38,404 bases of DNA from the NCBI GenBank assembly GCA_018607135.1, contig JABBCA010000017.1, positions 1 through 38,404 of the forward strand, given 5' to 3'. A program made the translations under genes and the position numbers. Below the pieces are notes generated by a model. It was not told the DNA's origin, did not search any database, and saw only the letters and a program-made list of their open reading frames with translations. How positions within the stretch are numbered: the first letter of the stretch is position 1; every line of letters starts with the position of its first letter. This document shows positions 13,047 to 38,404 of the stretch, piece by piece. The stretch is from Opitutales bacterium (GTDB lineage: Bacteria; Verrucomicrobiota; Verrucomicrobiia; Opitutales; Coraliomargaritaceae).

Positions 13047-13048
13047 AT

Positions 13049-13828: not shown

Positions 13829-13845
13829 TTTGGCAGTATGCCAAA
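13829..13845. promoter_or_regulatory. Palindrome TTTGGCA-GTA-TGCCAAA between two leftward genes
   Basis: Perfect 7-bp arms with a 3-bp spacer lie in the 113-bp gap after the T4SS operon's last gene. It looks like an operator for the genes at 12834-13755. There is no T run, so a terminator is less likely. Confidence 0.45.
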
Positions 13846-13868
13846 TTCAGAGGTTCGTGTATGCATGA

Positions 13869-15417: not shown

Positions 15418-15430
15418 CGTTTAATCGAGA

Positions 15431-16321: not shown

Positions 16322-16327
16322 GATCCG

Positions 16328-17014: not shown

Positions 17015-18231
17015 ATAGTAATGACTGCTTGCGGTGCTGTATTGAGCGCAAAAATTCTTGCGGCATTTAGACTGCCTGACGGGTCGTTCGGGGCGTTGTC
17101 AGTCAAAAGAGGATTCCCACGGTCAGGAGATGCAGGTAATGCTTTCTGAGAACTTCCAGCGATTGCGCTAGCAGGGGAGTGGGGCGTAGGGTGGCTATAG
17201 CGGCTTACGGGGCCTGTTACACCACCGCCTCCATAGGGGGAAGTCGGTTCGTTAACATGGTATCCACCTCCTGAGCCGATGCCTTCATAACCTCCCGTTG
17301 GAGCTGGGCCACCGGAACTGCCTCCACCACTGGATGCTACCGATGAAGGTGCGGAGCCACCGCCACGGCCTGCCATGCCCATGCTGCTGCCCATGTAGGT
17401 CGCAAATGCAACGGCTCCAGTCACTGCATTGGTTGCGCCCTGTAGGATTGCGCCACTGGAAAACAGAAGAAACATGATGGTCGGTGTGGCGAGTGTCCCG
17501 ATCACAAGAATCAAAGACGCAATAAGACTCATAATAAGGGAACCGAAGCTCATCATGTAGAGTGCCGATCCAGTGTCGTTCCCCGTGAAGGTGGATGCCG
17601 TAGCGAAGTCGTTGATGAAGCTGATTGCAGCTAGATTCGTAATGGCAAATCCAATCGGCCATGCCATTACCGCCATGATATTGGAAATGAGTTTGACGCC
17701 GATATTACCCATTGAAGGGAATATGAATAAGGCGAGTCCTATTGGTAGGAATAGAAAACCAAACCACTTCAGCGCGTATTGCAAAATGAGGAAAGGAATC
17801 TGGAAGACTGCCGCGATGGTGATGACGAACTTCGTCGCGCCAAAAACAAGAGCAAGATAGACCGAGTTTACGATTCGATCCACACCCCAGCCTTCAGCTT
17901 CGGGATCTTCTTCGATCGATTTTAGCAAAGCGTCAGATACTTCAAAAGGTTCGCTACCATAGTTGCTATTAATCGTTTCAGCGGCTTGATAGAATCCAGC
18001 ATCTAGCTTTTCGAACCAGAAGGAAATCGTTGAGATTAGGGCTACGAGGAAGAAACAGGTAAAGACAGGCTTTATCATTGAAACCATGTCGGCGTTGCTT
18101 TCCGACACGCGCATCAAGCGAACGATCAAACCAGTAAGAAGTATGAAGTAAGGCACGAACATCAAAGCTCCTTGAAGCTCGGAAATCGAGTCTTCAAAGT
18201 CTTTGAGATAGATAGGGCCTAATAAATCCAT
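17011..18231 (-). CDS. VirB6/TrbL-like polytopic T4SS membrane protein
   Basis: A 406-residue polytopic inner-membrane protein, expected to form part of the translocation channel. I count about six or seven hydrophobic segments between residues 24 and 260 (for example ALMFVPYFILLTGLIVRLM, FTCFFLVALISTISFW, FGFLFLPIGLALFIFPSMG, LIMSLIASLILVIGTLATP). After residue ~275 the chain turns into a Gly/Ser/Pro-rich soluble tail (GRGGGSAPSSVASSGGGSS), a common feature of TrbL proteins. The length matches TrbL. The stop overlaps the virB8 start by 4 bp, so the two are translationally coupled. Confidence 0.82.
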   Translation of the reverse strand: MDLLGPIYLKDFEDSISELQGALMFVPYFILLTGLIVRLMRVSESNADMVSMIKPVFTCFFLVALISTISFWFEKLDAGFYQAAETINSNYGSEPFEVSDALLKSIEEDPEAEGWGVDRIVNSVYLALVFGATKFVITIAAVFQIPFLILQYALKWFGFLFLPIGLALFIFPSMGNIGVKLISNIMAVMAWPIGFAITNLAAISFINDFATASTFTGNDTGSALYMMSFGSLIMSLIASLILVIGTLATPTIMFLLFSSGAILQGATNAVTGAVAFATYMGSSMGMAGRGGGSAPSSVASSGGGSSGGPAPTGGYEGIGSGGGYHVNEPTSPYGGGGVTGPVSRYSHPTPHSPASAIAGSSQKALPASPDRGNPLLTDNAPNDPSGSLNAARIFALNTAPQAVITI

Positions 18232-18264
18232 AGCTAACTGAGAACCTAATGTAATTGCTTCGAG

Positions 18265-18708
18265 CTATTGAGCATTCTCGATCCCATCTAGATAAGTTCT
18301 GGTTTCACGAATAGCTTGATTTATATCTTCTCCTTCGGCGGTGAAACTGACGCCGTTATGTGCTTTCATCTGCTCACGGATAAAGTCTTTTCTCCTATCT
18401 TGAAGTTCGCGCACGTATTCGCCTGTTTCAGTGCTGTATACGCTGTAGGCTTTGCGCTCTTCTGGTGTCATAATCTTGCGGTTTTTTATGAAGTCATTGC
18501 GCCTTTCGATATACTCGGCGGATAACGTTTCAATTTCCTCAATGTAAGGGTCTTCGATGATCACATCTTTTTTGCCTTCAACGGTAATACGAATCGTTCG
18601 GCTTGGCTCACCCGCCTCTTCGATGATGACCTCGACTTCCTGCGATTCTTTGGAGCAAGCAACGAAAGCGAGTGAAACGAGAATGAGTGACATCCATAGT
18701 ATTTTCAT
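18265..18708 (-). CDS. Small T4SS-operon lipoprotein
   Basis: A 147-residue predicted lipoprotein. The frame opens at 18738 but the start MKILWMSLILVSLAFVACS at 18708 gives a clean signal with lipobox FVAC (Cys18) and avoids overlap with the preceding gene. The mature part is highly charged and helical (EERKAYSVYSTETGEYVREL, RRKDFIREQMKAHNGV). It sits between the VirB5-like and VirB6-like genes, the position of small entry-exclusion or lipoprotein genes (TrbK/EexN) in Trb and VirB operons. An entry-exclusion role is therefore a reasonable guess, not demonstrated. Confidence 0.65.
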   Translation of the reverse strand: MKILWMSLILVSLAFVACSKESQEVEVIIEEAGEPSRTIRITVEGKKDVIIEDPYIEEIETLSAEYIERRNDFIKNRKIMTPEERKAYSVYSTETGEYVRELQDRRKDFIREQMKAHNGVSFTAEGEDINQAIRETRTYLDGIENAQ

Positions 18709-18721
18709 AATGGGTCTTTGG

Positions 18722-19513
18722 CTAATTGGTGGATTCATTATTTTGCGTAATGCCGTCTAGATATCCTCGCAAAGATCGGTAAGCATTGTTCTGATCCTTT
18801 AGCTGCGCCTTGATCGAAACTGCTTGCGATTTTTCCGTTTGATTTTCGTTCAGACTTTTTAAAGCCGTGTATTGCTGATGCTGCTTTTCGCGCTCTGAAA
18901 TCAGTAGAGCGACTTGGCCGTTCTGAGCGTTGACGATAGCTGAAAGCTTTTGAACTTCGGCATCCGTCTCAGCTGCTTCGAGTTCGGCTAAGGTAAGTGC
19001 CTGATTCTCCTGTAGCTCTGCTAATCTTAAATCAATCTCTTTGCTGGAAGTTACGTAATTGGTGTATTGCTGGTCAACGACAGCATACTTTTTAAGTGCG
19101 GCATCATCGACGGTAACGACTTCACCCGTGACCGTAGTCGCTTCGACTGTTTCGAACAAACCGTTGTGGGTTTCTTCGAGACTGTCCGAACCATCGGCTT
19201 CGCTGATAATTGTGTCCCACGGAATGCCGTAATCCAAAGCGTCTAGAAAATCTTCGAAGGAGAGGACTTCAATCGAAGGCAATTCAACGAGTATCGGGTC
19301 GCCCATCCAATCTTTGATCGTTGTTTGAACCTCCAATTGTTCCGTCATTTTTTCATAATTCCGTGTCCATTCGGCTATGGTTTCCGCGTGTTGAGCAACG
19401 TCCTGTAGCTTCATGATTATGGTTTGAGCGGTATGGCCTGGGTCAGTAACCACCCATTGCCCATACATTTGAAGGGACAGTAATGGAATCGAGAGTATGA
19501 TTTTTAGCTTCAT
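18722..19513 (-). CDS. VirB5/TrbJ-like T4SS protein
   Basis: A 263-residue exported protein: a short signal (MKLKIILSIPLLSLQMYGQ) followed directly by WVVTDPGHTAQTIIMKLQDV, which matches the TrbJ/VirB5 opening pattern of W-V-x-D-P followed by Ala-Gln and long helices. The rest is almost wholly helical coiled-coil (HAETIAEWTRNYEKMTEQLE, AELQENQALTLAELEAAETD, LISEREKQHQQYTALKSL). In VirB systems this minor component sits at the pilus tip; TrbJ homologues are needed for mating. It overlaps the preceding glycine-zipper lipoprotein gene by 4 bp. Confidence 0.78.
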   Translation of the reverse strand: MKLKIILSIPLLSLQMYGQWVVTDPGHTAQTIIMKLQDVAQHAETIAEWTRNYEKMTEQLEVQTTIKDWMGDPILVELPSIEVLSFEDFLDALDYGIPWDTIISEADGSDSLEETHNGLFETVEATTVTGEVVTVDDAALKKYAVVDQQYTNYVTSSKEIDLRLAELQENQALTLAELEAAETDAEVQKLSAIVNAQNGQVALLISEREKQHQQYTALKSLNENQTEKSQAVSIKAQLKDQNNAYRSLRGYLDGITQNNESTN

Positions 19514-19971
19514 TTTGCTTTCAGGTAGATGATGCGTGAGTTTCGGATTTCGCCGTTAATTTGCTGTTCCGGTATCTGGATCGGAACGAAGCTTTCTGTC
19601 TGCGTTTCGTAAGCGAAGGCGTCTTCTTTTTGTCGATTCTGAGTAATCCAGTATTGTTGCTTTACGCTCTGATTGAGCGCGGCTTCATAACCGCTTCGGT
19701 AAGCTTGTCGCTCGTTCTCTTCGGCAAGGGCATTTGCTCCAATAGCCGTCAATGCTCCTAATGCGGCACCTCCGGTTGTCCATGCGGCATCACCATCGGA
19801 GGCTTCGTGTGCAATGATTGCACCCAAAGCACTGCCACCAATAACGGTCGCGTTCTTACCAGCTTTGCTACTGGCGCAACCTGACAAAAGAACCGAGATC
19901 AAGAGCGTGCAGAAAGGCAAAATATACCTTTTTGTCGGGAACTGAAATGTTGAGTCAGTCAGAGCTTTCAT
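19510..19971 (-). CDS. Glycine-zipper lipoprotein
   Basis: A 153-residue predicted lipoprotein: signal RYILPFCTLLISVLLSGC with Cys32 in lipobox LSGC. A glycine-zipper/YMGG-like hydrophobic segment follows (VIGGSALGAIIAHEASDG and WTTGGAALGALTAIGANALA), then a helix RQAYRSGYEAALNQSVKQQY. Glycine-zipper lipoproteins associate with the outer membrane; here the gene is flanked by virB4 and virB5, with 4-bp overlaps on both sides, so it is an integral part of the T4SS operon. I do not know a standard VirB counterpart. Confidence 0.7.
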   Translation of the reverse strand: MKALTDSTFQFPTKRYILPFCTLLISVLLSGCASSKAGKNATVIGGSALGAIIAHEASDGDAAWTTGGAALGALTAIGANALAEENERQAYRSGYEAALNQSVKQQYWITQNRQKEDAFAYETQTESFVPIQIPEQQINGEIRNSRIIYLKAK

Positions 19972-22616
19972 TGTAGGACGGTTTCCCTTTTGGGTGTAGA
20001 CGTTGTATCGTCTTCGTTTTCATAGTAGGTCTGAGCCTGTATGTTCAGTGCCGTGCCGCAAAGCGGTGGATGTGCACCAGGAGCGTAGTAGCAAACACTG
20101 GAAAATTTGTGGCCTTTGGATTGTTGCTCAACAAGAGGGTAATCCATAATCGCCTCTTGAACGGATGGCGGGAGTCCTGTGTCATTAGCGATTTCCTGAA
20201 TGTCAGCTTTGTCCAACTGACGCATTAACAGGTGTTGCTTGGAGTTACCCATTACAACGGAGCGGATACGCGAACTTTTGAAGCGTTCGTACTGCTGGAC
20301 AATCGAACAAGTCCAGCACGAGAATTTTCTGAGCTGCGCGTATGCCTCAGAAACCGTTTTTTCACCTCCAGGAACATCAAGGAACCGTGAAACCTCCTCA
20401 AAGATGATCCGCTTGCGAAGGTTTCGAGGCATTGAAATTATATGCTGACGAGCAAACGAGGTAATCAGCAAACCTGCGGCAGTTCTCAATTCGACAGCCT
20501 CGTCGCCAAGTTGCCCTAGCTCGAAGTGCGCGATCTTGTTTCTGAGATTGATGTTGGTCGTCCCGTCGAAAAGCTTTCCGTAACTGCCCGTTGCCGTCCA
20601 TGCAGACATGAGCGTGGCAAGCTCGTCGATTTCGCGCTTCGGATGGTAAGAGCTACGCCCAAATCGCATTAGCTCGATCAATTGGGAGTGAATAGGGTAG
20701 TCTGTCGGTTCAAAGTAAGCGAATGCAGTATCCTTAACGTAATCGCTGGTGTCGGGGTTTTTAGCGAATTCGACGATGACATCGGATTGAATCGTATCGA
20801 AAAACTCAAGAGCTTCTTCATTCTCTTTTTTGAGTAATTCTTTGAAGATACTGAACGCTTCGACGAAGCTGGTTTTAGTGGCGATCTTCTGCTGTTTCCA
20901 AAGGTAGGTTGCACAGGCCATCTTCCGAACCTCGGGCATTTGATCACGGTGCTTCTTACTCCAGCTTTCAAATTGATCGCGGCATAGGAGATCGATGTAA
21001 TGACCAATCTGCGCTTGCCTGACTTGCTGCCTTTCTTGGGAATCCGGTGCGCCGATCATACGCGAGACGAGCGTAACGCCAGAGGATACCTGTAGCCGCG
21101 TCAGCGGCATACCCGCCGTATCAAAGTAGTTGATGACAAGATCGCTGTCCGGCTCGATAATGATCGGTGTCCCTCCCAAATTATTGGTGAAGCGTTCGTA
21201 TGAAAGGCCTTCTTCGATGATAACCGAGTAAGCGAACTTGTGAGCGGTTTGGGATAAGAGGTCTTCCATGAAGACCGATTTACCCGCGCCACTGATCCCG
21301 AAAAGAACAGTGTGCTGTGGCGTTTCGTCTACGAAAGTGCTCAGACCAACGAGGTTGTTCTGGTTGCCGTCGTAGATGGCCTCGGCGTTATTAAGGTATC
21401 CGGTAAACGTAGCTGAAAAAGGAAGTAGATCCGCAAGATAGCCATCTTCGGCATACTCATCGCGGTGGGTGTAGCTGGAACCTGTCCAGCCAGGCCATGA
21501 ACTGAAGAAGAGCTTCTTGCTCGATGCGAAAAGTGTATTCTGGTAAACTTCAGCGCCGTTCATTTGACTGACGGCTTGTTTTAGTTCGGCGGTTTTAGCG
21601 CGTAAGGTATCAATGTCTTTCGACCACGTTCGGATGATGTAAGTGACGCTATAGGGGCGCGTATATCCTTGGGCAAGCGCATCAATCGTCGTTTCCTTTT
21701 TCTGAATTGCTGTGGCGTCGGATTGACGGCCTTTATGACGGTGCTCGTTTTTGAGGCGGTCGGCTGCTTTTTCCTCCTTGCGAATGACTTTCTTAACGTC
21801 GAGCGGCCTGATGTTGACCGTTATCTGATAATCCAAGGACGGCAAACTGGTGAGGTTATGAATGATTCCAGGATAGGTTTCACTCGGCCAGCGCATGACC
21901 GTAAATATGCTATGGTAGTAGCCGTCGAACTCTAACGCGGCCTTGTCTGCTGGACGCAAATCGCAGTGTAGGCAATTTTCTTGGATACTGTATCGTTCGT
22001 CGAAACTTCCCTCGTAATTGTAGTCGAAGGTTTCCGTGAGTGATGGATTAAGGAACTTCTTGAAATAGGTGTAGTGTGCCAAGTCGTCCATTGGGACGAC
22101 GGTCGTATCAGCGCCTAAGATACTCCTGATCTGGTTGTAAAGCTCGTTGAAATGAGTCTGTAAACTATCGAGCTGGGCATCATAGAATTTGCGCAATCCC
22201 GATTTCGTTTTTACATTACCCGAGTATTTTTCCATCCGAGAAGAAACAAAAATAACCAAGTGCTCTCTTCGTAACTTGCGTTCGAGCATTCTCGACCAGT
22301 AGCGGGAAAAGCGCTCGTTGCGTATGGCTTTGATATACTCGTCTGTGCAATTGTTGCAGGTGTCTTCGTAATACTTCGTAAGTGGATTTCGGTAATCATT
22401 GTTACATGTCCATTGAACCTGCATCGATTGATTCGGGCCGAGTGAATTTATCAGATGCCGTATCTTCCGTTTGTATTCATTCTTTATTCCAACACTACCG
22501 CCCCGTAAATCGGGTGTTTCGACAACAAAACCCTTTGACGCAGTGCATCCTTTTTCAAGTGAGCCGAATATCAGCATTCCATCTGCAAACCAACCATTGG
22601 GGGCTTGGCTAGACAT
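19968..22616 (-). CDS. virB4: VirB4/TraC-like T4SS ATPase
   Basis: Large cytoplasmic ATPase that powers pilus assembly and substrate transfer. The 882 residues show a Walker A site LFGISGAGKSVFMEDLL at about residues 438-450, and a Walker B-like RIIFEEVSRFLDVPGGEKT near 735 with the double Glu usual in VirB4. An Arg/Gln-rich C-terminal motif follows (AQLRKFSCWTCSIVQQYERF and MGNSKQHLLMRQLDKADI). The N-terminal domain (about 1-400) is the VirB4 N-lobe. Length is near that of TraC/VirB4. It overlaps the virB3-like gene before it by 8 bp and the lipoprotein gene after it by 4 bp. This is the best T4SS marker in the window. Confidence 0.92.
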   Translation of the reverse strand: MSSQAPNGWFADGMLIFGSLEKGCTASKGFVVETPDLRGGSVGIKNEYKRKIRHLINSLGPNQSMQVQWTCNNDYRNPLTKYYEDTCNNCTDEYIKAIRNERFSRYWSRMLERKLRREHLVIFVSSRMEKYSGNVKTKSGLRKFYDAQLDSLQTHFNELYNQIRSILGADTTVVPMDDLAHYTYFKKFLNPSLTETFDYNYEGSFDERYSIQENCLHCDLRPADKAALEFDGYYHSIFTVMRWPSETYPGIIHNLTSLPSLDYQITVNIRPLDVKKVIRKEEKAADRLKNEHRHKGRQSDATAIQKKETTIDALAQGYTRPYSVTYIIRTWSKDIDTLRAKTAELKQAVSQMNGAEVYQNTLFASSKKLFFSSWPGWTGSSYTHRDEYAEDGYLADLLPFSATFTGYLNNAEAIYDGNQNNLVGLSTFVDETPQHTVLFGISGAGKSVFMEDLLSQTAHKFAYSVIIEEGLSYERFTNNLGGTPIIIEPDSDLVINYFDTAGMPLTRLQVSSGVTLVSRMIGAPDSQERQQVRQAQIGHYIDLLCRDQFESWSKKHRDQMPEVRKMACATYLWKQQKIATKTSFVEAFSIFKELLKKENEEALEFFDTIQSDVIVEFAKNPDTSDYVKDTAFAYFEPTDYPIHSQLIELMRFGRSSYHPKREIDELATLMSAWTATGSYGKLFDGTTNINLRNKIAHFELGQLGDEAVELRTAAGLLITSFARQHIISMPRNLRKRIIFEEVSRFLDVPGGEKTVSEAYAQLRKFSCWTCSIVQQYERFKSSRIRSVVMGNSKQHLLMRQLDKADIQEIANDTGLPPSVQEAIMDYPLVEQQSKGHKFSSVCYYAPGAHPPLCGTALNIQAQTYYENEDDTTSTPKRETVLQ

Positions 22617-24505: not shown

Positions 24506-24540
24506 TTTGAGGGTTTTAGTGTTTAATCGCGTTTAAGAAG
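24506..24540 (+). promoter_or_regulatory. Candidate ECF-sigma promoter before the anti-sigma gene
   Basis: TTTGAGGGTTTT (24506-24517) followed by CGCGTTTAAG (24528-24537) recurs with identical spacing at 25951-25985. About 27 of 35 positions match between the copies, concentrated in the two blocks. A spacing of ~15 bp between GAGGGT and CGTTTA suits an ECF promoter. The predicted start of transcription would fall at or near the ATG at 24543, so the mRNA may be leaderless. Confidence 0.6.
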
Positions 24541-24542
24541 TC

Positions 24543-24875
24543 ATGAAAGACCATATATTTGAAGAATTACTGAGGGCAGAAAGGGCTCGGTCGTTGCCGG
24601 AATGTCCCTCAAACATTGAGGCAAATGTCCTTCGGCGTATTCGTCTGGCTAAAAGTGAAAGTGATGCTGGTAGCGTGTTAGATTGGATATTCGGGCTACT
24701 GCCTCAAAAAAGCCTGATTTTAAGTGCTTTAGCTGTAACGGTGATGCTAAGCGTGACCTCCACTGTGGTGTTGGAGGCGAGTTCTGCACGCGCTTCAAAG
24801 AGCCAAAGTCTTGCCGTCAGTGCTCTGGACTTTGGAGTTTTCAACGAAGCTCCGTTTTTTGATTTGGAAAATTAG
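24543..24875 (+). CDS. Putative membrane anti-sigma factor (CnrY-like position)
   Basis: A 110-residue protein with a soluble N-terminal half (EELLRAERARSLPECPSNIE), one membrane segment at about 56-76 (SLILSALAVTVMLSVTSTVV), and a short periplasmic tail. Topology, size and position directly before a metal-sensor-like gene and an ECF sigma gene match the CnrY anti-sigma of CnrYXH systems, where the cytoplasmic N-terminus holds the sigma factor. Sequence likeness to CnrY itself is not obvious to me, so the call rests on topology and synteny. The next ATG lies 4 bp after the stop. Confidence 0.65.
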   Translation: MKDHIFEELLRAERARSLPECPSNIEANVLRRIRLAKSESDAGSVLDWIFGLLPQKSLILSALAVTVMLSVTSTVVLEASSARASKSQSLAVSALDFGVFNEAPFFDLEN

Positions 24876-24879
24876 GTCT

Positions 24880-25356
24880 ATGATAACAAAGGATCGATCA
24901 AAACGAACTAGACAGATACTCACGCTAGTCGCCCTCGCACTGCTGATGATCACTATCTGCATTGGGGCGTCATTCGTTACGACACAGTGGTTCTCGAAGA
25001 GTCAGGATGATTGGAGTCACGATACGCCACACGGACATGATTGGCTGCATGAAGAGCTGGACCTGAATGAGCAGGAAGAAATCGCGATAGATGCGTTTGA
25101 GGGTGATTATCGGAGGCAGCGAAAAGCTTTACTCAACGAATTCGAGTCGCGGGTCGGAGATCTGCGTCAAATTTTAGTTGATACAGATCAATACGTGCCT
25201 GAGGTGGATGTTGCCATTCACCGACTTCACGAAGTCCATGGGGAGCTCCAGGAGTTATCCATACAACACTATTACGACATGTTGAGCGTGCTACCTACTG
25301 AAAAACAGGATAAATTGCGTCAACTTGCGGTGAAAGCACTTAGCCAGCCGGAGTGA
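24880..25356 (+). CDS. Periplasmic metal sensor, CnrX/Metal_resist-like
   Basis: A 158-residue membrane-anchored periplasmic protein. The frame extends upstream but the ATG at 24880 is the start, because it follows the previous stop by 4 bp and gives a single N-terminal membrane segment (LTLVALALLMITICIGASFV). The periplasmic domain opens with a His-rich stretch (SHDTPHGHDWLHEELDLNEQ) and continues as a four-helix-like charged domain (DAFEGDYRRQRKALLNEFES, HRLHEVHGELQELS). This WLHEELxL signature is that of CnrX-type heavy-metal sensors and related CpxP-like proteins. In CnrYXH, metal binding by X releases the sigma factor from Y. The metal here is presumably copper, given the island, but that is inference. 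Confidence 0.78.
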   Translation: MITKDRSKRTRQILTLVALALLMITICIGASFVTTQWFSKSQDDWSHDTPHGHDWLHEELDLNEQEEIAIDAFEGDYRRQRKALLNEFESRVGDLRQILVDTDQYVPEVDVAIHRLHEVHGELQELSIQHYYDMLSVLPTEKQDKLRQLAVKALSQPE

Positions 25357-25364
25357 TCCTATGA

Positions 25365-25955
25365 ATGGGCGAAATCGATGCAGACCTAAAGTCGCTAGAG
25401 AAGATCCAACAAGGAGACGAAGCTGGACTCACGGAATTGATGTCGCAGCATCGCAGTGCTTTGTTTCACTTCATTTATCGCTATGTCGCCAATGAAGCGG
25501 ATGCCGCCGAGCTGACGGAGGAAACGTTCTTTCGAGTTTATCAGAAAGCGAATCGCTTTCAGCCGAAGGCTAAAGTAGTCACTTGGATATTTTCGATAGC
25601 CGGGAACTTATGCAGGGACTCCATTCGAAAGAATAAAAAGCGTAGGGGCGATTTGTCTTTAGACGCTGAGATTGACGGAACGTCGGGTGTCCAGCGAGGT
25701 GATACTTTCGCCAGTGATTCGAGGAACCCAAGCGAGGCAACGACCTCGAACGAAGCGCTCGCAGGCGTCCATGCTGAAATTTTTGCGCTACCTCATAAGT
25801 TGAAGTTTCCCTTCATCTTTTGTATTTTGGAGGGCAACTCCTACGATGCTTGCGCTGAGGTTTTGAAAACGAGCCGAAAGACCGTGGAAACTCGAATCTA
25901 TCGGGCTCGAAAATTACTTCGCGAGAAATTGTCGGAGATGTTTCAGGAAATTTGA
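25365..25955 (+). CDS. ECF sigma factor (CnrH-like)
   Basis: A 196-residue RNA polymerase sigma factor of the extracytoplasmic-function group. Region 2 spans about residues 14-85 (LMSQHRSALFHFIYRYV, DAAELTEETFFRVYQKANRF, VVTWIFSIAGNLCRDSIRKN). A variable linker follows, and region 4 covers about 133-190 (LPHKLKFPFIFCILEGNSYD, AEVLKTSRKTVETRIYRARK). The start is the ATG at 25365, 8 bp after the sensor stop; another ATG at 25361 is out of frame. It is the third gene of a Y-X-H-type cassette, and a duplicated promoter-like motif overlaps its stop codon. Confidence 0.9.
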   Translation: MGEIDADLKSLEKIQQGDEAGLTELMSQHRSALFHFIYRYVANEADAAELTEETFFRVYQKANRFQPKAKVVTWIFSIAGNLCRDSIRKNKKRRGDLSLDAEIDGTSGVQRGDTFASDSRNPSEATTSNEALAGVHAEIFALPHKLKFPFIFCILEGNSYDACAEVLKTSRKTVETRIYRARKLLREKLSEMFQEI

Positions 25956-25985
25956 GGGTTTTTGAGTAAAGCCGCGTTTAAGTAG
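25951..25985 (+). promoter_or_regulatory. Second copy of the candidate ECF-sigma promoter
   Basis: It starts two bases before the sigma stop codon (TGA at 25953). TTTGAGGGTTTT at 25951-25962 and CGCGTTTAAG at 25973-25982 repeat the motif before the anti-sigma gene with the same spacing. It would start an mRNA with a ~118-nt leader ahead of the AraC-type regulator and the copper genes. Confidence 0.6.
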
Positions 25986-26104
25986 GTATTACAAACTAGA
26001 AGGCTAAATTTCAGCGAACGCTCATTCCTGAAAATGTCTGCTCATGCACACAACCAAGAAACCGATCAGCTGCGACTGGCACTCGTTCTATTAAAAAAAT
26101 CTTA

Positions 26105-26677
26105 ATGAAAGAACGCACTACACTATCCATCAAACACATGGTCTGCCCCCGATGCATCACAACGGTGCGATCCATTGCTGAGGATCTCGGTTTGGAAGTG
26201 CTATCGGTTGTTCTGGGCGAGCTTACTGTGAAAGGAGAGATCAGTGGAAAAACGATGCAGATGTTCAAAGAACAGCTGGAGGCCTCCGGTTTTTCAATTC
26301 TTATATCAAGGGAGCAGAAGCTGATCAATCGAATCAAAACGCTCATTGTTGAACGCATCCATTATCAAGACGAAGTCCCTGCGATAAAATTGTCGTCTTA
26401 TCTCTCGGATAAGCTGCGCCATGATTACGGCTATCTGAGTAAAATCTTTTCTTCAGTCGAAGCCGTAACTATCGAGCGATACCAGACCGCTCAAAGGATT
26501 GAGCGAGCAAAAGAACTGCTTTCATATAACGAAGTCAGTATTACTGAGGTCGCGGAATGGCTCGGGTTTAGTAGTTTGCCGCATTTTTCCTCTCATTTTA
26601 AACGAGAGACCGGGCTCGCCCCGAAGGAGTTTAAGCGAGTGAAGCATCCAGAGAGACGTTCACTCGATTCGATTTAG
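26105..26677 (+). CDS. AraC-family regulator with N-terminal heavy-metal-associated domain
   Basis: A 190-residue fusion. Residues 1-70 look like a ferredoxin-fold metal-binding domain with a C14-P-R-C17 motif (LSIKHMVCPRCITTVRSI) and the second-half signature LTVKGEISGKTM. Residues about 92-185 are an AraC DNA-binding domain with two HTH motifs (YLSKIFSSVEAVTIERYQ and SITEVAEWLGFSSLPHFSS, ending KRETGLAPKEFKR). It could sense a metal directly and control the copper genes that follow 75 bp later. Fusions of this kind are seen beside metal-efflux genes in several Gram-negative phyla. The second promoter-like repeat lies upstream, so the ECF sigma may control it. Confidence 0.85.
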   Translation: MKERTTLSIKHMVCPRCITTVRSIAEDLGLEVLSVVLGELTVKGEISGKTMQMFKEQLEASGFSILISREQKLINRIKTLIVERIHYQDEVPAIKLSSYLSDKLRHDYGYLSKIFSSVEAVTIERYQTAQRIERAKELLSYNEVSITEVAEWLGFSSLPHFSSHFKRETGLAPKEFKRVKHPERRSLDSI

Positions 26678-26719: not shown

Positions 26720-26752
26720 AAATGAAGCTTTTGAGCTGTTATAATTATTCAA

Positions 26753-29077
26753 ATGAAACAAAAGCCTAAATGTTGCCAACATGAAGATCCACATGGTGGA
26801 GATCATCACCACCACGCGGATGCTGATGTCGAACCCTCTGTAGACGCAAAATACTTTTGCCCGATGTGTCCGGGTGTGGAATCCGATACACCTGGTGACT
26901 GTCCAAAGTGTGGTATGCGTCTGGAGCGTAATCCAGCTTTTAAGGCAGAGACTTCGAAAATCTGGACCTGCCCAATGCATCCCGAAATTCAAGAGTCAAA
27001 GCCGGGGCAATGTCCCAAATGTGGTATGGATCTTGAGCCGATGGACGGAGTGCTCGAAGATGATGAGGAAGCAGGCGAGATCAACAGCCTGAAGCGCAAG
27101 ACACTGATTGCAGGGATTCTCACTGTGCCGATTTTGCTACTGGCATTCGATAGCATGATTCCCGGCTTGTCCTTCGACTCGATTCTTTCGCCTACTTTGC
27201 AAGGTTGGCTTGAGCTGCTGTTGGCAACTCCCGTCATCCTTTGGGCAGGCGGCATGTTTTTCACGCGTGGATGGCGCTCGATCATCAATCGCAGCTTGAA
27301 TATGTTTACCCTCATCATGCTAGGGGTCGGCGCAGCCTATGCTTACAGCGTAGTTGCGGTGCTTTTTCCGAGCATTTTCCCCGACTCATTCCGAAGGCAC
27401 GGGGAAGTTCAGCTTTATTTTGAAGCGGGGGCCGTTATTACGACATTGATTTTGCTCGGGCAATGGCTGGAAGCCCGCGCCCGAAGGCAGACGGGGCAAG
27501 CCATCCAGAGCTTGCTCGATCTCGCGGCCAAAACCGCCCACCGCATCAACGACGATGGCGAGGAAGAAGAAGTCGATATCGACGTGATTGAGAAAGGCGA
27601 CCGCTTGCGTGTGCGTCCCGGTGAAAAGATTCCCCTCGACGGTTCGATTCGTGAAGGCAAAAGCACCATCGATGAATCCATGATTACTGGAGAGCCAGTG
27701 CCTGTTGGAAAAGGCGAAGGCGACAAGGTCATCGGCGCTACGGTCAACCAGACCGGTAGTTTCATCATGGAAGCCGAGGCGGTCGGTGAAGAAACCATGC
27801 TCTCACAAATCGTCGGCATGGTCGCTCAAGCACAGCGCAGCCGTGCCCCGATTCAGAAGCTGGCCGATCAGGTCGCAGGCTATTTCGTGCCTGCCGTGGT
27901 TTTAATCGCAGTCATTGCATTTACCGTTTGGGCGATTTTTGGCCCAGCTCCAGCGATGGCTTATGCAATTGTCGTAGCCGTCTCGGTCCTGATTATAGCT
28001 TGCCCCTGTGCTTTAGGTCTTGCGACGCCTATGTCGATTATGGTCGGAGTGGGGAAGGGTGCTCAGAACGGAATTCTGGTGAAAAATGCCGAGTCAATTG
28101 AGCGAGCCGAGAAAGTCACTCATTTGATTACGGACAAGACTGGCACGCTCACGGAAGGCAAACCTTCGGTCGTCGATGTGCAAATTGGCGAGGGGGTCGA
28201 ACCGCACCATTTATTGGCAATGGCTGCTGCCGTCGAAACGCAATCCGAACATCCACTCGCGCGTGCCGTGGTTGATAAAGCGAAGGCAGACGGCTTAGAC
28301 CTCTCCGATATTTCAGACTTCGAAAGCACGACTGGTGGTGGCGTTCACGCTCATATTCAAGGTAAGCTTATTCGAGTGGGCAAGCGCAGCTTCATTGAAT
28401 CCAACAGCATTGCGATTCCTGATGATCTTGTGAGTGAAGCAGAGCGTTTGCAGGAAAAAGCCAAAACCGTGATCTGGGTTTCCGAAGATAGCCAACTATT
28501 AGGGCTTATCGCTATTGCCGACCCCATTAAGGAAACCTCAAAAGAGGCCATCGAATCACTCCATGCTATGGGAATTAAGGTCGTCATGTGCACGGGCGAT
28601 AATTCGCGCACGGCACACGCTGTCGCCAAAACACTTGGGATCGACGAAGTGCATGCCGAAGTGTCCCCAGAGGATAAGCAACGCATCGTTAATGAATTGA
28701 AAGCCCAAGGCCATCGGGTCGCTATGGCGGGTGATGGGATCAACGATGCGCCCGCGCTGGCTGCTGCGGACGTGGGGATCGCCATGGGGACAGGAACCGA
28801 TGTGGCTATCGAAAGCGCCGGGCTGACTTTAGTCAAGGGGGACCTTCGAGGCATCGTAGGCGGGCTCAAGTTAAGCAGATCCGTCATGCGCAATATCCGG
28901 CAGAATCTGTTTTTTGCATTCATCTATAATGCGATCGGGGTGCCGGTTGCAGCGGGAGTTCTCTATCCGTTTTTCGGAATACTCCTAAGTCCTATGATTG
29001 CAGGCGCTGCGATGGCTTTCAGTTCCGTATCTGTCGTGACAAATTCACTACGTTTAAAGCGATCCTCTATCAATTAA
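26753..29077 (+). CDS. Copper/heavy-metal-translocating P1B-type ATPase
   Basis: Inner-membrane ATPase that exports copper, most likely Cu(I). The 774 residues begin with a His-rich stretch ([11 protein letters not shown]) and two heavy-metal-binding modules of the CPM(C/H)P...CPKCGM type: Cys36, Cys39, Cys50, Cys53, then Cys73, Cys87 and Cys90. There is no classical HMA domain. The membrane core carries the ion-binding CPC (417-419, [13 protein letters not shown]), and the actuator motif is TGEPVPVG. The phosphorylated Asp461 lies in DKTGTLTEG, with SEHPLARAV as the P1B His-Pro motif and [20 protein letters not shown] as the hinge. It is followed 21 bp later by a cupredoxin gene. Several genes share the name copA, so none is assigned. 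Confidence 0.93.
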
Positions 29078-29098: not shown

Positions 29099-29593
29099 AT
29101 GAATCAGCTTAAAAGCATCACATTCGCCGCGCCCGTTGGACTAATACTTATTTTCTTACTAGCAGGATGTGGTGTCGAAAAAGAATCGGAGGACGGCCAC
29201 GGCCATGAACACAGCGAGACTGTGTCGAATATGCATGCGCCGCATCTCACGATGAGCGCAGATGAGTCAACGGATCATCACGGCTCCACTGGTAAGATTG
29301 AGAAGCCTGCGGATGCCAGAAAAGTCACTGTGATTGCGACCGATTTTGCTTTTGAACCGTCGGATATTACAGCGAAACCTGGCGAGAAGCTTTTCATCGA
29401 ACTCGTGAACACTGGCAACGCCGTGCACATGTGGCAATTGGAAGGAAAACCAGAGACGCACGTCCATACCAGTGGCGGCGAGACATCTTCGAAAGTAGTC
29501 ATCGCGCCTAAAAAAGCTGGAACCTACAAGCTGGTATGCAGCACGCCGGGACACGTTCAACTCGGTATGGTTGGCACGCTGACGGTCAAATAA
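29099..29593 (+). CDS. Cupredoxin-domain lipoprotein
   Basis: A 164-residue predicted lipoprotein with signal GLILIFLLAGC (Cys24). It carries a His/Met-rich linker (DGHGHEHSETVSNMHAPHLT, DHHGSTGK) likely to bind copper. Residues about 70-164 form a cupredoxin fold with the type-1 copper ligand pattern: His in NAVHMWQLE, then LVCSTPGHVQLGM with Cys, His and Met in the usual Cys-x4-His-x4-Met spacing. It may deliver or store copper in the periplasm between the ATPase and the multicopper oxidase on either side of it. Both gaps (21 and 49 bp) suggest one operon. Confidence 0.87.
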   Translation: MNQLKSITFAAPVGLILIFLLAGCGVEKESEDGHGHEHSETVSNMHAPHLTMSADESTDHHGSTGKIEKPADARKVTVIATDFAFEPSDITAKPGEKLFIELVNTGNAVHMWQLEGKPETHVHTSGGETSSKVVIAPKKAGTYKLVCSTPGHVQLGMVGTLTVK

Positions 29594-29642: not shown

Positions 29643-31433
29643 ATGACAGAGAAAACAGAATTAGATACCCATTTGAACCGACGTCGATTCATCCAGAAGA
29701 TGAGCGCGGGCGTCTTCGTAACAAGCCTTGGCGGTTTGCTACCGCGCCCATCTTGGGCTGATGTTGTCGGTAAAAGCTTAGCCGATTTGGATATCCGCAG
29801 GCGTTACGATCTGAATATCGGCTATATGCCGTTCATCCTGAACGGAAAAAAAGAATCGGTCAAAGCGACTGCAATCAATGGCACTGTCCCCGGGCCACTC
29901 TTGCGTCTTCGTGAGGGTGATGACGTCGAGCTAAACGTAACGAACTCTCTTATGGATACGAAGCATTCTTCGATCCACTGGCACGGTTTGATTGTCCCTT
30001 ATAACATGGATGGCGTGCCCGGTGTCAGCTTTAAGGGTATTCCGCCAGGAGAGACCTTCAAGTATCGCTTTAAGCTGCAGCAGGCAGGCACCTATTGGTA
30101 TCACAGTCATTCCGGATTTCAGGAGCAGACGGGAACCTACGGGCCGCTCGTGATTGAGCCGCGCCAGAAGGAGCCCTTTAAGTATGACCGCGACTACACT
30201 GTGTTGCTTTCTGACTGGACTTCTGATGGTCCTGACGCGGCATTCCGTAACGTCACAATGGATGACGGATATTATAATTTTCAACAACGCACGGTTTTTG
30301 ATTTTGTGAGAGATGCTAAAGAGCGCGGCTTAAAAAGCACGGTCGCGGATCGACTGGCGTGGGGCAAGATGCGGATGAGTCCAGTCGATTTGGCAGATGT
30401 TACCGGTTTTGAATATACCTACTTAATGAACGGTAATTCACCCGAATCAAATTGGACTGCCTTGTTCAATCCAGGGGAAACCGTTCGCCTTCGTTTTATT
30501 AATGGGGCAGGGATGAGCACGTTTGATGTGCGTATCCCCGGCTTGGATATGAAAGTCGTCATGGTCGACGGTAAGCAGGTCAAACCTGTCGACATCCACG
30601 AGTTTCGCATCAGCGTGGCAGAGACTTACGACGTGCTCGTAACTCCGAAAAAAGATCAGCCATTTACGATCTTCGCGGAGTCCCTTGATCGCAGTGGTTA
30701 TGCGCGGGGCACCTTGTCACCACAGGAAGGACTTATGGCCGAAATTCCGAAATTAAGACCAAGGCCTGTTCGCACACTTGAAGACATCGGGATGGGCGGT
30801 ATGGATGAGATGATGCTCGGTGGTAAAATGGACCACGGTTCAATGGGACAGGGTAAAATGGATTCGAAAGCACCCAGCCAGATGACTCCGGATATTCCTG
30901 GTCCTATCGGCCCCGAGCCTTTTAAGCCGGAGAAAGGAATCAATCCCGCGATGATCATTATGAACCCAAGAGACCGTGCTTCAGAGCCTGGAATCGGGCT
31001 TGGTGAAGACGGTTGGAAGGTGCTCACATACGGCGACCTTGTAAACGCAGAACCGCAGCTATATTCTTCGAAAGTAGATCGTGAAATGACGATAAACATC
31101 ACTGGTAACATGGAGCGCTATATTTTCTCCTTCGATGGGAAAAAATACTCACAACATCCGGGCCCCTATAACTTCCGTCATAATGAACGACTCCGCTTAT
31201 GGCTCGTGAACCACACCATGATGGAGCACCCGATTCACCTGCACGGAATGTGGATGCAGATTGAGAACGGACAGCCGCATGAGCGTATTCCTTATAAGCA
31301 CACTGTTCTGGTCAAGCCCGGCGAGAAGATCTCGACCCTAATCACGCCCATCGAAAAGGGCGACTGGGCCTTCCACTGTCATCTACTCTACCACATGGAA
31401 GCGGGCATGTTCCAAGTCGTCCGTGTTTCCTAA
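29643..31433 (+). CDS. CopA-type multicopper oxidase, Tat-exported
   Basis: A 596-residue periplasmic copper oxidase of the CopA/PcoA type, thought to oxidise Cu(I) to the less toxic Cu(II). A twin-arginine signal leads the protein (LNRRRFIQKMSAGVFVTSLG, cleavage near PSWA). The four copper-binding stretches are present: SSIHWHGLIV, GTYWYHSHSGFQ, HPIHLHGMWM and FHCHLLYHMEAGMFQ, giving the full type-1, -2 and -3 ligand set with an axial Met. A Met-rich segment at about residues 380-405 (GGMDEMMLGGKMDHGSMGQG) is typical of copper-tolerance oxidases. Length is normal for the family. It is followed by copB, the usual copAB order. Confidence 0.94.
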   Translation: MTEKTELDTHLNRRRFIQKMSAGVFVTSLGGLLPRPSWADVVGKSLADLDIRRRYDLNIGYMPFILNGKKESVKATAINGTVPGPLLRLREGDDVELNVTNSLMDTKHSSIHWHGLIVPYNMDGVPGVSFKGIPPGETFKYRFKLQQAGTYWYHSHSGFQEQTGTYGPLVIEPRQKEPFKYDRDYTVLLSDWTSDGPDAAFRNVTMDDGYYNFQQRTVFDFVRDAKERGLKSTVADRLAWGKMRMSPVDLADVTGFEYTYLMNGNSPESNWTALFNPGETVRLRFINGAGMSTFDVRIPGLDMKVVMVDGKQVKPVDIHEFRISVAETYDVLVTPKKDQPFTIFAESLDRSGYARGTLSPQEGLMAEIPKLRPRPVRTLEDIGMGGMDEMMLGGKMDHGSMGQGKMDSKAPSQMTPDIPGPIGPEPFKPEKGINPAMIIMNPRDRASEPGIGLGEDGWKVLTYGDLVNAEPQLYSSKVDREMTINITGNMERYIFSFDGKKYSQHPGPYNFRHNERLRLWLVNHTMMEHPIHLHGMWMQIENGQPHERIPYKHTVLVKPGEKISTLITPIEKGDWAFHCHLLYHMEAGMFQVVRVS

Positions 31434-31456: not shown

Positions 31457-32299
31457 ATGAAACAAATTTTCAGAAACACCCTATCATTCGCACTCTTCGC
31501 TATGGCCGCTCCGCTCACGTATTCGCAACACGCAGGCCACGCCATGCCGGACGACTACCAATCACCGCCTCCGCTACCGCCCGAGGGGCAGGCCATCGGC
31601 AAATATGCGCCCGACGATCCCGGCACAGGAGCCACGAATTTTGGCGTGGCTCCCGTTCACGATAACCAACTATTTTACTTCTTCCGCGCCGACCGATTCG
31701 AATACCGCTCCTTCGATGATGGAGAGGTCGCTCTCTGGGACATCCAAGCTTGGGTGCAACGCGATTACAACAAGCTGTATTTTGAATCCGAAGGCGAATA
31801 TTCGCTCGACGAGGACAGCTTCGAGTCCGTGCAGACTGAGTTACTCTACGGTCGCGCCATTTCCTCCTTTTGGGACTTGCGTGGGGGACTTCGCTATGAC
31901 TTCGAGCCCAATCCTGAACGTGCCTTCGCTGTTTTGGGCATTCAGGGCTTGGCACCGCAATGGTTTGAAGTAGATGCCAACTTCTTTCTCAGCGAAGATG
32001 CCGACCTGTATTTTGGCATCGAGGCAGAATATGATCTATTGCTGACGCAAAGACTTATCCTTCAGCCGCGCCTAGAACTGGATCTTGCCGCGCAAGACGT
32101 TCCCGAGTATGGCACAGGAGCTGGGTTCACTGGTATTGAGCTGGGGCTCCGCCTGCGCTATGAAATCTCCCGGAAGTTCGCTCCTTACATCGGCGTCAGC
32201 TGGGAATCGGCTCTGGGCGAAACTAAAAATATCGTCGAGTCGAACGGAGCTGATCCGGACAGCACTTCATTCGTCGCCGGTATCCGATTCTGGTTTTGA
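31457..32299 (+). CDS. copB: CopB/PcoB-like outer-membrane copper resistance protein
   Basis: A 280-residue outer-membrane beta-barrel protein usually encoded after copA/pcoA. It has a signal peptide (FRNTLSFALFAMAAPLTYSQ) and a His/Met/Pro-rich start (HAGHAMPDDYQSPPPLPPEG). Alternating strands of the CopB family follow: NQLFYFFRADRFEYRS, LWDIQAWVQRDYNKLYFESE, VQTELLYGRAISSFWDLRGG, ending in AGIRFWF with a C-terminal aromatic Phe as for outer-membrane barrels. The acidic-aromatic pattern through the barrel matches PcoB. It lies 23 bp after the oxidase and probably ends the copper operon. Confidence 0.92.
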   Translation: MKQIFRNTLSFALFAMAAPLTYSQHAGHAMPDDYQSPPPLPPEGQAIGKYAPDDPGTGATNFGVAPVHDNQLFYFFRADRFEYRSFDDGEVALWDIQAWVQRDYNKLYFESEGEYSLDEDSFESVQTELLYGRAISSFWDLRGGLRYDFEPNPERAFAVLGIQGLAPQWFEVDANFFLSEDADLYFGIEAEYDLLLTQRLILQPRLELDLAAQDVPEYGTGAGFTGIELGLRLRYEISRKFAPYIGVSWESALGETKNIVESNGADPDSTSFVAGIRFWF

Positions 32300-32798: not shown

Positions 32799-34646
32799 AT
32801 GTGGGCAGACAACGAAACAGCAGAAGATCTCTTTGGGTTCCGAATCCATTCGGATTTGGTTTGTGAATTAATTCTCGATCCGTCCGTCCTACCAGTGACA
32901 ATAGGAGTCTTTGGTGACTGGGGTGGCGGAAAATCAAGTATTATGCAGATGCTTAACGCTGATTTAGAAGCACTAGAGAAGGAAAATGGAATCGCAACGC
33001 TCTATTTTAATGGCTGGCTGTTCGAGGGATATGACGATGCGAAAGCAGCATTACTAGGTTCGATTCTTACTTCACTGCGAGATCACGAGACATTTGGTTC
33101 TCAATTAAAAGAGAGTGCGATAAAGCTTCTTAAGCGTGTTGACTACATGCGCGGAGCCAAAATTCTGTTTTCAGGTGCCCTTGCGGGCGGAGTTGCTGCG
33201 GCGACTGGTGGTGCTGGTCTGGCCGCAGTTCCCGCAATTATGGGTGCAGCTTTCAGTGGCGCGGGTGATAAAGCCTTGGATGCCGCTAAGGAATCCGTAT
33301 CCGGCGATGAGGAAGCTGAGGCGGGCGAAGTGCTGTCAGATATAAGGCAATTTCGAGATGATTTTGCAAAAATGCTGGCGGCAAGTGATATCCAAACTTT
33401 GGTAGTCATTATTGATGATCTAGACCGATGCTCTCCCGAGCGCATTATTGAAAATCTTGAAGCAATTAAACTGTTTTTGAATGTGCCGAATACCGCTTTT
33501 GTCATTGGGGCTGATCGACGGATTATTAGTCAGGCAGTGGCGTGGAGATATCGTGAGACATTGCCCAAATTGGATTTAAGCGTAAGCGATGGAAGTGAAC
33601 GTCTTGTTGAAGATTATTTGGAGAAGCTTATACAGATTCCATATAGTTTGCCAAAATTGTCTCCATCTGAGATCGAAACTTACTTAACCCTTCTTTTCTG
33701 CAAGCGTCACATGTCGCCGGAAGAATTTGCACGAGTCCTAGAGGCTTCTGAGAGTCAAAGAGCTACGGATAGGCATCAGTCTTTTGCCCAGACCCAGGTA
33801 TTGGAAATTATGGGAGGTGACTGCTCGCGTGAACTATCGGAGTCAATGCAGATGGGGTCGATGATTGCTGAACAGATCACAGACGTCCTGCAAGGGAATC
33901 CCCGTCAAGTTAAGCGGTTCTTAAATGCGTTCTTTTTGAGAAGAAAATTAGCTACAGTTGCAAAATTGGAGGATGTTCTTGATGAGGTATTGGTAAAACT
34001 GATGCTTTTGGAATATTCCGCTCCAAAGCTATTTCAGTCACTCTTCAAGAGTATGAATGGTGAGAGTGGGGATATACCTTTCATTGCAGATTATGAAGCC
34101 ATCGTGGCGGAGGAAAACAGAGTCGAGGAACTCCCTGCAGAGTGGAAGCCATATATCCGTTGGCTATCATATGAACCGAAGCTTACGAACGTGGATCTAC
34201 GGAATTACATGTGGGTGACAAGAGATCGCCTCCGATCTACCATGAGTTCAACGGTAATGGTTCCGACGGTCGTCAGAAATACGCTTAAATTACTATTAAG
34301 TGAGCTCGGTGACACTGAAGGCCGTAAGCAGGTAGGTGCACTACAGCCTGATGAATTGGAAATTTTGTTCAATCTCCTTGAAAATCACGCACAACAGCGG
34401 CCCGGAGAAATGAAAGCGTTTAAAGCACTTATAGACATATCCGAGGCGAATCCGAGCTATGTGCCCGCTTTTTCGGCTTTAATTGAGCGCCTGCCCAAAA
34501 GTGATTTAGCTCCCGCCTTGGGAGTCACTTTAGGGACTCTGTCAAAGAAGGGCACACCGCTTGGTCTATGGGGCAAAACGTGCATCGATCAGTATAAGTT
34601 AGGTAGGAGCAAATTCGAAAAAGCGTTTACCAAAGCTAGTAAGTAA
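32799..34646 (+). CDS. qatA: QatA, KAP-family P-loop ATPase of a Qat defence system
   Basis: First gene of a Qat anti-phage system (known as QatABCD). The 615 residues form a KAP-type NTPase: Walker A GVFGDWGGGKSS at about 36-47, and the Ala/Gly-rich hydrophobic insert of KAP proteins at about 115-155 (FSGALAGGVAAATGGAGLAA). Walker B follows at about 201-210 (LVVIIDDLDRCSPERI) with sensor region FVIGADRRIISQAVA. Further on is the KAP motif PRQVKRFLNAFFLRRKLA. The C-terminal ~200 residues are helical and unrecognised. It is followed by qatB after 2 bp. QatA is the presumed phage sensor or regulatory ATPase; the mechanism of the system is still not settled. Confidence 0.92.
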   Translation: MWADNETAEDLFGFRIHSDLVCELILDPSVLPVTIGVFGDWGGGKSSIMQMLNADLEALEKENGIATLYFNGWLFEGYDDAKAALLGSILTSLRDHETFGSQLKESAIKLLKRVDYMRGAKILFSGALAGGVAAATGGAGLAAVPAIMGAAFSGAGDKALDAAKESVSGDEEAEAGEVLSDIRQFRDDFAKMLAASDIQTLVVIIDDLDRCSPERIIENLEAIKLFLNVPNTAFVIGADRRIISQAVAWRYRETLPKLDLSVSDGSERLVEDYLEKLIQIPYSLPKLSPSEIETYLTLLFCKRHMSPEEFARVLEASESQRATDRHQSFAQTQVLEIMGGDCSRELSESMQMGSMIAEQITDVLQGNPRQVKRFLNAFFLRRKLATVAKLEDVLDEVLVKLMLLEYSAPKLFQSLFKSMNGESGDIPFIADYEAIVAEENRVEELPAEWKPYIRWLSYEPKLTNVDLRNYMWVTRDRLRSTMSSTVMVPTVVRNTLKLLLSELGDTEGRKQVGALQPDELEILFNLLENHAQQRPGEMKAFKALIDISEANPSYVPAFSALIERLPKSDLAPALGVTLGTLSKKGTPLGLWGKTCIDQYKLGRSKFEKAFTKASK

Positions 34647-34648
34647 TT

Positions 34649-38016: not shown

Positions 38017-38404
38017 TAGGTGTAGTTCGGATTCTAGTCGTCGGCCCCATGCGTGCGAAGGAAATAACTCTTCTGAGTAAAACTACAGCTAGACCCATAC
38101 GCAGAGTCCAGCACGCAAATCCCCATACCGATCATCACGCCAGTTCCCATCGAAACGATAATCACCTTAAGGTTAAACTAACTTTCTCATTATTTAAAGA
38201 TTCATTTTTGCTCATAGGTAAACGCCTAACACGATACTCGGATGTTTTCTAGTGGAGAATAAACTTAGTCATGGGGGCATCATCTTTTATTTTCAGACAC
38301 TGTTTTCTATGAGGGCGAGAAACTTTATAAGGGTTTCATCCTTCCGCTACGTTTAACTCTAACGTAAGCCAATCTACAAACCCCTTAGGAAATGACGACG
38401 AACG
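38017..38404. other. Right-end region without a clear gene
   Basis: About 390 bp after the channel gene start. Its one longer frame (38049-38252) has no protein-like character. I searched it for a second copy of the tRNA-Met 3' sequence and found none. Confidence 0.5.

Follow-up and report, generated by a model that had tools for sequence, protein, structure and literature searches.

The window analyzed here is the whole 38,404-nucleotide stretch from an Opitutales bacterium; it is contig C17 of a genome of 3.53 Mb in 106 contigs. Three adjoining genes on its forward strand encode Y, a putative anti-sigma factor with a short N-terminal part and one hydrophobic segment (24543..24875; 110 aa); X, a membrane-anchored periplasmic metal sensor homologous to CnrX and NccX (24880..25356; 158 aa; PF13801, Metal_resist, 3.5e-8); and an ECF σ factor identified by family matches (25365..25955; 196 aa). 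Downstream on the same strand follow an AraC-family regulator (26105..26677), a copper-type P1B ATPase (26753..29077; family models), a CopI-like cupredoxin (29099..29593; scoring under the curated threshold for CopI), a CopA-type multicopper oxidase (29643..31433; TIGR01480, 3.1e-219), and the outer-membrane copper resistance protein CopB (31457..32299; PF05275, 4.1e-84). The contig also holds a phage-type integrase and conjugation genes.

The cassette is bracketed by a repeat: TTTGAGGGTTTT-N10-CGCGTTTAAG has two exact same-strand matches in the window, at 24506-24537, before the anti-sigma gene, and at 25951-25982, across the stop codon of the σ gene, just where the first-pass annotation had placed them; 100 dinucleotide shuffles of the window gave no match. 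That annotation described a duplicated 35-bp promoter-like sequence. The duplication is real and the 10-base spacing identical, but because the two blocks (22 bases) are the same in both copies while the spacers have 4 of 10 bases in common, the repeat is a 32-bp two-block signal rather than a plain 35-bp duplication. As a predicted promoter, copy 1 (24506..24537, forward strand) would consist of a -35-like block, TTTGAGGGTTTT, at 24506-24517 and a -10-like block, CGCGTTTAAG, at 24528-24537, with the core CGTTTA at 24530-24535 and a predicted transcription start at 24542 or 24543; only 5 nt separate its end from the Y ATG (24543). In copy 2 (25951..25982, also forward) the core occupies 25975-25980, the predicted start lies near 25987, and the σ stop codon (TGA, 25953-25955) forms the first three bases of TGAGGG. 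The predicted start sites are carried over from two mapped starts of the cnr system, 7 nt after CGTATA.

How close is this cassette to CnrYXH, the type to which it was first assigned? For X the kinship is clear: among solved structures its profile finds NccX at 2.4e-11 and CnrX, under the deposited name CnrR, at 1.3e-10 and weaker, and window residues H53, H57, E74, H130 and M134 align with CnrX H42, H46, E63, H119 and M123, positions kept, in this order, in 73, 67, 72, 75 and 74 of 83 aligned sequences. The first four of these CnrX residues are known as metal ligands. The fifth, M123, is described as one in PMC7689651. The σ profile finds SigW best among solved chains (4.5e-35) and also CnrH (1.1e-19). 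Y is another matter: it has no match above cut-off among family models and no relative among solved structures (a single match at E 1 was taken as chance), and both Y profiles, compared by hhalign with the single CnrY sequence, give probabilities under 1%, in what is a weak test against one short template. The two groups of Y proteins match each other by profile (96.5%), and CnrY matches neither; Y is likened to CnrY by position and topology only. The label thus stands for the X homology, the layout and the promoter type, promoters of one kind being present by sequence before Y and after the σ gene, and not for Y, which has no detectable similarity to CnrY.

The closest described system is cnrYXHCBAT on pMOL28 of Cupriavidus metallidurans CH34, where the genes likewise run Y-X-sigma-efflux, one promoter stands before Y and another after the σ gene, and a homologous X has the same five ligand positions. 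The cnr promoters have (A/G)AGGGG at -35 and CGTATA at -10; the window has CGTTTA and one base less between the blocks. A regular expression run over 8.5 kb of pMOL28 recovers cnrYp (AAGGG...CGTA) and cnrCp (GAGGG...CGTA), with a block spacer of 17 in both, plus one match inside cnrB, while a weight matrix made from the Verrucomicrobiota-side sites finds nothing above threshold in the cnr locus; this matrix was built partly from loci that were later scanned, and its scores there are circular, so the counts used in this analysis were taken with fixed patterns instead. According to PMC9045368, the cnr starts lie at 53286 and 54660, within a base of earlier cnrYp and cnrCp primer extension; both are exactly 7 nt after CGTATA, and the cnr Y message has a leader of 23-24 nt, whereas the window Y is predicted to be leaderless. 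Also unlike cnr, the window has a second promoter that takes in the σ stop codon, a neighborhood of copper genes, and a Y dissimilar in sequence. The bracketing layout is therefore known from cnr; the predicted leaderless Y and the stop-codon overlap, as judged from sequence, look like a variant of it. A literature search that left most subscription journals outside its reach returned no description of the motif in Verrucomicrobiota or of such a leaderless anti-sigma gene.

Conservation in the order was assessed in 372 genomes, a scan that is the least fitted of the tests; the patterns behind the cassette-by-cassette counts were written after sites had been seen. A profile search for X (cut-off E 1e-6) found it in 36 of the 372 genomes (29 of the 231 good ones), and TTTGAGGGTTT-N12-GCGTTTAA, with at most one mismatch, occurred at 28 sites in 11 of the 372, against one site for the reversed pattern. 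All 11 genomes with a near-exact motif fall among the 36 with X. The chance of this is 1.5e-12 if genomes are independent, a figure overstated because they are related; here and elsewhere related sequences are not independent, and duplicates were dropped by identical sequence. The remaining 25 X genomes have no near-exact copy, which we count against the promoter reading. Loci were available for 30 of the 38 X matches in the order, plus one fetched separately. The 28 sites reduce to 27 distinct ones (two share one sequence), and 25 of these are followed within 160 nt by an ATG-started frame of 70 codons or more: at 7 nt in eight cases (seven Y genes and one efflux gene), at 11 nt in seven (all efflux genes by eye), at 1-10 nt in five and at 39-93 nt in five. 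Among the genes at the remaining sites, named partly by eye, are methyltransferase, P-II-like and multicopper-oxidase-like ones. The two sites without a nearby frame are window copy 2, whose extracted locus ends before AraC, and L181, near a contig end.

One regular expression was also run over 91 distinct σ loci. Of the 36 usable loci from the Verrucomicrobiota side, a set that includes Kiritimatiellota, MAGs and one contig labelled Gammaproteobacteria (L063), 32 carry the upstream motif; three of the four misses (L056, L059 and L147) show variant blocks and the fourth, L063, does not. All 44 alphaproteobacterial σ loci (one of them, L101, a MAG) have the motif. A second copy is found in 18/37 and 34/44 loci, respectively, and of 416 control segments, each 1000 nt long and taken at a distance from the cassette, 17 contain the motif. 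Within the cassette, two blocks with a spacer of 16 lie within 60 nt upstream of 32/33 Y genes, 0/25 X genes and 0/31 σ genes. The locus L075 has neither an upstream motif (0/1) nor a second copy (0/1), and Verrucomicrobiaceae-type σ relatives without a clear X have the upstream motif in 0/8 usable loci and a second copy in 0/9; this group of nine, one of which has a weak X match, was formed after the absence of X had been seen. Sequence comparison thus shows a motif specific to the X-bearing kind of σ locus, rather than to X itself, because the group without X is post hoc and its σ factors stand apart in the tree. The motif is conserved beside homologous σ genes, whose lack of it the first-pass annotation had named as grounds for abandoning the idea, and its suggested consensus, GAGGGTTTT / CGTTTA, is borne out by comparison with the relatives.

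In a quick tree of 81 σ factors (80 of 137 relatives were kept), the window σ belongs to a Verrucomicrobiota-Kiritimatiellota group, where it joins Coraliomargarita (support 97); CnrH sits on a long branch with the alphaproteobacterial σ factors that have X. X-bearing σ factors do not form one clade and the label "has X" needs two changes; a single origin is therefore not supported by this tree. The alphaproteobacterial cassettes, from Sphingomonadales (Novosphingobium, Erythrobacter and others), are CnrYXH-like and stand before multicopper oxidase genes (3 of 3 tested). As in the window, they have GAGGG at -35, mostly 16-nt spacing, and a second promoter over the σ gene end, with second copies at two overlapping offsets in 30 of 34 loci; unlike in the window, the -10 reads CGTA- and Y mostly has room for a leader.

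Further copies lie elsewhere in the window genome. A whole-genome scan with the full motif and at most three mismatches finds one extra site, on contig C7 (G000:C7:874-905; two mismatches), and none for the reversed control. The end of its CGTTTA is 11 nt from the ATG of an outer-membrane efflux gene (PF02321, 6.8e-35); the frames after this gene read by eye as a metal-efflux adaptor and an RND pump. A relaxed scan of the same genome returns 12 sites, against four for the reversed control; the perfect ones are the three strong copies only, and the other nine have two mismatches, among them one at window position 38327. This is a weaker fourth copy, TATAAGGGTTTC-N10-TACGTTTAAC (38326..38357, forward strand), whose -10 core lies 36 nt before an ATG at 38392; the gene that starts there, a methyltransferase (PF08241, 1.7e-22), runs on into contig C7. 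Window and C7 share an exact 55-base overlap, the last bases of the one being the first of the other, and this stretch is found at no other place in the genome; C7 is therefore very probably the continuation of the window, with the copies on a single island. A motif copy also precedes a methyltransferase gene, followed by a copper-ATPase-like gene, in the relatives G004 and G011, the methyltransferase family having been tested for G004.

What might copy 2 drive? As for its overlap with the σ gene, the stop codon is the TGA of TGAGGG in 9/18 second copies on the Verrucomicrobiota side and in 5/34 alphaproteobacterial ones, and in 25 of those 34 the last sense codons, GAG GGN, are the -35 itself, followed by the stop. 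The genes that come next vary. On the Verrucomicrobiota side, an outer-membrane efflux gene was identified by test in L038, L055, L057, L061 and L066; a P-II-like gene follows the second copy in G004 and a MauE/glutaredoxin-like one in L140. In Alphaproteobacteria the next gene starts 6-9 nt from the -10 in 21/34 loci, and the three genes tested are multicopper oxidases, one at 8 nt and two at 30-32 nt. Window copy 2, unlike 20 of the 26 other near-exact sites, has no gene start within 11 nt: the first longer gene, for the AraC-family regulator, begins 124 nt on, which would leave a predicted 118-nt leader containing a 23-codon open frame whose stop overlaps the AraC ATG. A remnant of a cation diffusion facilitator was considered for this short frame and rejected, as it has no similarity to the five matches to that family in the genome. 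The expectation that the target promoter would stand twice, before the cassette and before the resistance genes, needs a qualification: copy 2 here has AraC, 124 nt away, as its next gene, and the copy placed directly before a resistance gene is the one on C7, at the efflux gene.

This arrangement permits another reading, in which copy 1 is a working σ promoter and copy 2 a relic of the promoter of the efflux gene now at the far end of the island, the copper operon being transcribed from its own promoter or through AraC. The bases after the copy 2 core, AGTAGGTAT, resemble the efflux-gene promoter of G055, AGTAGGCAT, which leads into an ATG; here the ATG is gone and the next gene is 124 nt off. 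The copper ATPase has a TATAAT of its own, 7 nt before its ATG. The AraC gene is rare: a homologue is present in 2/178 relatives, the window genome included, and for this reason the junction between copy 2 and AraC is probably recent. Against a relic, copies 1 and 2 do not differ in either block, which speaks for ongoing selection, and L058, L140 and L143 likewise have 104-132 nt between copy 2 and the next longer frame. A relic is a serious possibility, though one we do not favor; since both blocks are intact, we lean slightly toward copy 2 driving AraC and the copper operon through the 118-nt leader.

At the other end of the cassette, the spacing between copy 1 and Y is nearly fixed among relatives. 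Of 33 distinct regions upstream of Y, 31 match the two-block pattern, with a GAGGG-to-CGTT spacer of 16 nt in 30 and 17 in one, and the Y start lies past the end of the -10 core by 7 nt in 22, 8 in six, and 6, 11 and 21 in one each. One of the 22, L139, was aligned to a non-ATG codon, with an ATG 3 nt further and thus 10 nt away; after this correction 28/33 Y genes lie at 6-8 nt. The two that miss the pattern (L056 and L147) have, by eye, variant blocks with a spacer of 16 and a distance of 7. L151 (21 nt), L152 (11 nt) and L139 (ATG at 10 nt) are exceptions to the spacing expected of a leaderless message. Applied to copy 1, the 7-nt rule of the cnr starts gives 24542, one base before the Y ATG. 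RNA polymerase usually prefers a purine start after a pyrimidine, a preference that would favor a start at the A of this ATG. The preceding base is T in 27, C in five and A in one of 33 Y genes; before X it is C in 13, T in seven and G in five of 25 (a pyrimidine in 20/25), and before the σ gene C in 12, A in 10 and G in nine of 31, with T in 0/31. Going by these counts, T before the ATG is peculiar to Y, while pyrimidines in general are often found before X as well. Before 125 genes of the window genome the counts are T 41, A 39, C 33 and G 12.

Could the Y message instead start upstream, for example at a σ70 promoter, with the motif near the ATG incidental? Shine-Dalgarno-like 4-mers occur before 7/33 Y, 5/25 X and 7/31 σ genes and so are not rarer before Y; in the window genome they precede 9/64 first genes and 11/61 others, against ~9% in shuffles, so that their absence says little about a leader. 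This is in line with the few Shine-Dalgarno sequences noted for some Verrucomicrobia in PMC10783764. The same 125 genes (~200 kb of the window genome, with uncurated starts) give no clear TAnnnT peak at 6-8 nt, and so the leaderless Y is not plainly mirrored in other genes. However, an incidental motif would have to contend with the 6-8-nt spacing in 28/33 Y genes by pattern, plus the two variants found by eye, and with the T before the ATG in 27/33; a leadered Y message is accordingly rather unlikely. The Y message of the window is predicted to be leaderless, from the near-fixed spacing, the mapped cnr starts and the T-ATG context, and the earlier suggestion that the first-copy transcript may lack a leader holds by this comparison. 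In Alphaproteobacteria the Y start follows the -10 by 21-49 nt in 30/44 loci, by 17 in one and by 0-9 in 13; for these 13 the first possible start codon was taken, often GTG or TTG, and by eye the conserved N-terminus comes later. The leaderless Y therefore appears to belong to the Verrucomicrobiota-Kiritimatiellota side.

The repeat has also been considered as something other than a σ promoter. It could be an operator for a DNA-binding regulator such as the AraC protein encoded from 26105, whose gene adjoins copy 2 and for which conserved blocks about 22 bp apart could be half-sites; but the blocks do not repeat each other, their letters resemble the mapped cnr promoters, and their distance to the start codon is near-constant. 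An AraC homologue is found in 2/178 relatives, but the motif accompanies X throughout the order, and on this ground the AraC operator, which we regard as very improbable, was rejected. That the two copies are a functionless footprint of recent duplication or recombination, for which the integrase and conjugation genes of the contig might speak, is rejected as extremely improbable, given that the copies agree in their two blocks and not in the spacers, and that the pair stands at the same gene positions in other phyla.

The reading that we hold with considerable confidence is that the repeat serves as the promoter for the ECF σ factor encoded between the copies, part of a CnrYXH-like switch that senses metal. 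Comparison supplies the motif, its fixed spacing and conservation, its tie to X-bearing cassettes, and the X ligand positions; what we infer is that this σ factor recognizes the motif, that Y sequesters it, that Y is translated without a leader, that transcription reads on from copy 2, and which metal is sensed. Besides the 25 X genomes that lack a near-exact copy, we count against this reading the dissimilarity of Y to CnrY, SigW instead of CnrH as the best solved match of the σ factor, the silence of the weight matrix in cnr, the lack of a single clade of X-bearing σ factors, the absence of a gene start close to copy 2, the second copy in 18/37 loci on the Verrucomicrobiota side, the exceptions to the leaderless spacing, and Shine-Dalgarno-like 4-mers as frequent before Y as before X and σ. 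At rest, Y would hold the σ factor at the membrane, and X would sense metal in the periplasm. Once metal, most probably copper, binds to X, the σ factor would be released and together with RNA polymerase would fire the copies of TTTGAGGGTTTT-N10-YGCGTTTAAG. Copy 1 would then raise the switch itself, a positive autoregulation that includes the brake, Y, through a message starting at the Y AUG or one base before it. Copy 2, lying over the σ gene end, would direct transcription to the genes that follow: often an outer-membrane efflux gene in relatives, a multicopper oxidase gene in Alphaproteobacteria, and in the window, probably after a rearrangement, the AraC-copper operon.

Copper is proposed because of the genes around the cassette: the neighboring copper genes, the efflux operon, and the alphaproteobacterial oxidases all point to it. 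The ligand set of CnrX is that of a cobalt-nickel sensor. A copper-responsive ECF σ factor would have a counterpart in CorE, which senses metal through a domain of its own and is not known to come with a YXH cassette. CorE, from Myxococcus xanthus, is described as copper-dependent in PMC3107203, and the likeness to the window σ factor, as proposed here, is that of an ECF σ answering copper.

A more speculative idea, which we consider doubtful, joins these features into one design. In Verrucomicrobiota and Kiritimatiellota, a conserved, leaderless Y message would be driven by the σ factor while X and σ are translated from internal starts, and the efflux gene would start a few bases down its own message; the ratio of brake to σ would then follow the state of the ribosome, and the output promoter inside the σ gene end would tie σ and output together. 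If this is true, a change of initiation under metal stress would reset the switch at the translational level, and σ and output would stay tied when the cassette moves between genomes.

The two-block signal provides a concrete promoter candidate for a group of metal-sensing σ factors outside Proteobacteria. It also suggests that, together with the metal site of the sensor, the letters of the promoter and an almost unchanged spacing have persisted across phyla. Predicted leaderless and leadered Y genes offer a natural comparison for the role of leaderless starts in stress regulation, and a search with the motif may point to candidate target genes wherever a genome bears the cassette.

The predicted leader 3' of the second motif copy contains an open frame of 23 codons (window positions 26034-26105), for which no relative was found among the loci compared. 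The TAA of this frame shares bases with the ATG of the AraC regulator gene (TAATG), and the two may be translationally coupled. Farther along, a TATAAT sequence (26740-26745) lies 7 nt 5' of the copper ATPase ATG; it may be an independent promoter whose transcript would have a very short leader.

One of the sigma loci compared across relatives, L063, encodes a Verrucomicrobiota-type sigma factor, yet its contig is labeled Gammaproteobacteria: either the contig is misbinned or the locus was transferred. The CnrX-homologous sensor was not found at L063; the motif is present 3' of the sigma gene, with a PEP-utilizing enzyme encoded downstream of this copy, and again at 4951.

How far does the copper island extend? 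The final 55 bases of the window (38350-38404) are identical to the start of another contig of the same genome (G000:C7:1-55), and this overlap is absent from the rest of the genome; thus, C7 probably continues the window. Inside the island, consecutive genes for the anti-phage proteins QatA, QatB, QatC, and QatD (32799-37492) are flanked by copB on one side and the methyltransferase-efflux part on the other. A phage-type integrase gene close to recR, together with TrbI-, TraG-, and DUF4141-type genes (8635-22616), suggests an integrative conjugative element that carries the copper cassette as cargo.
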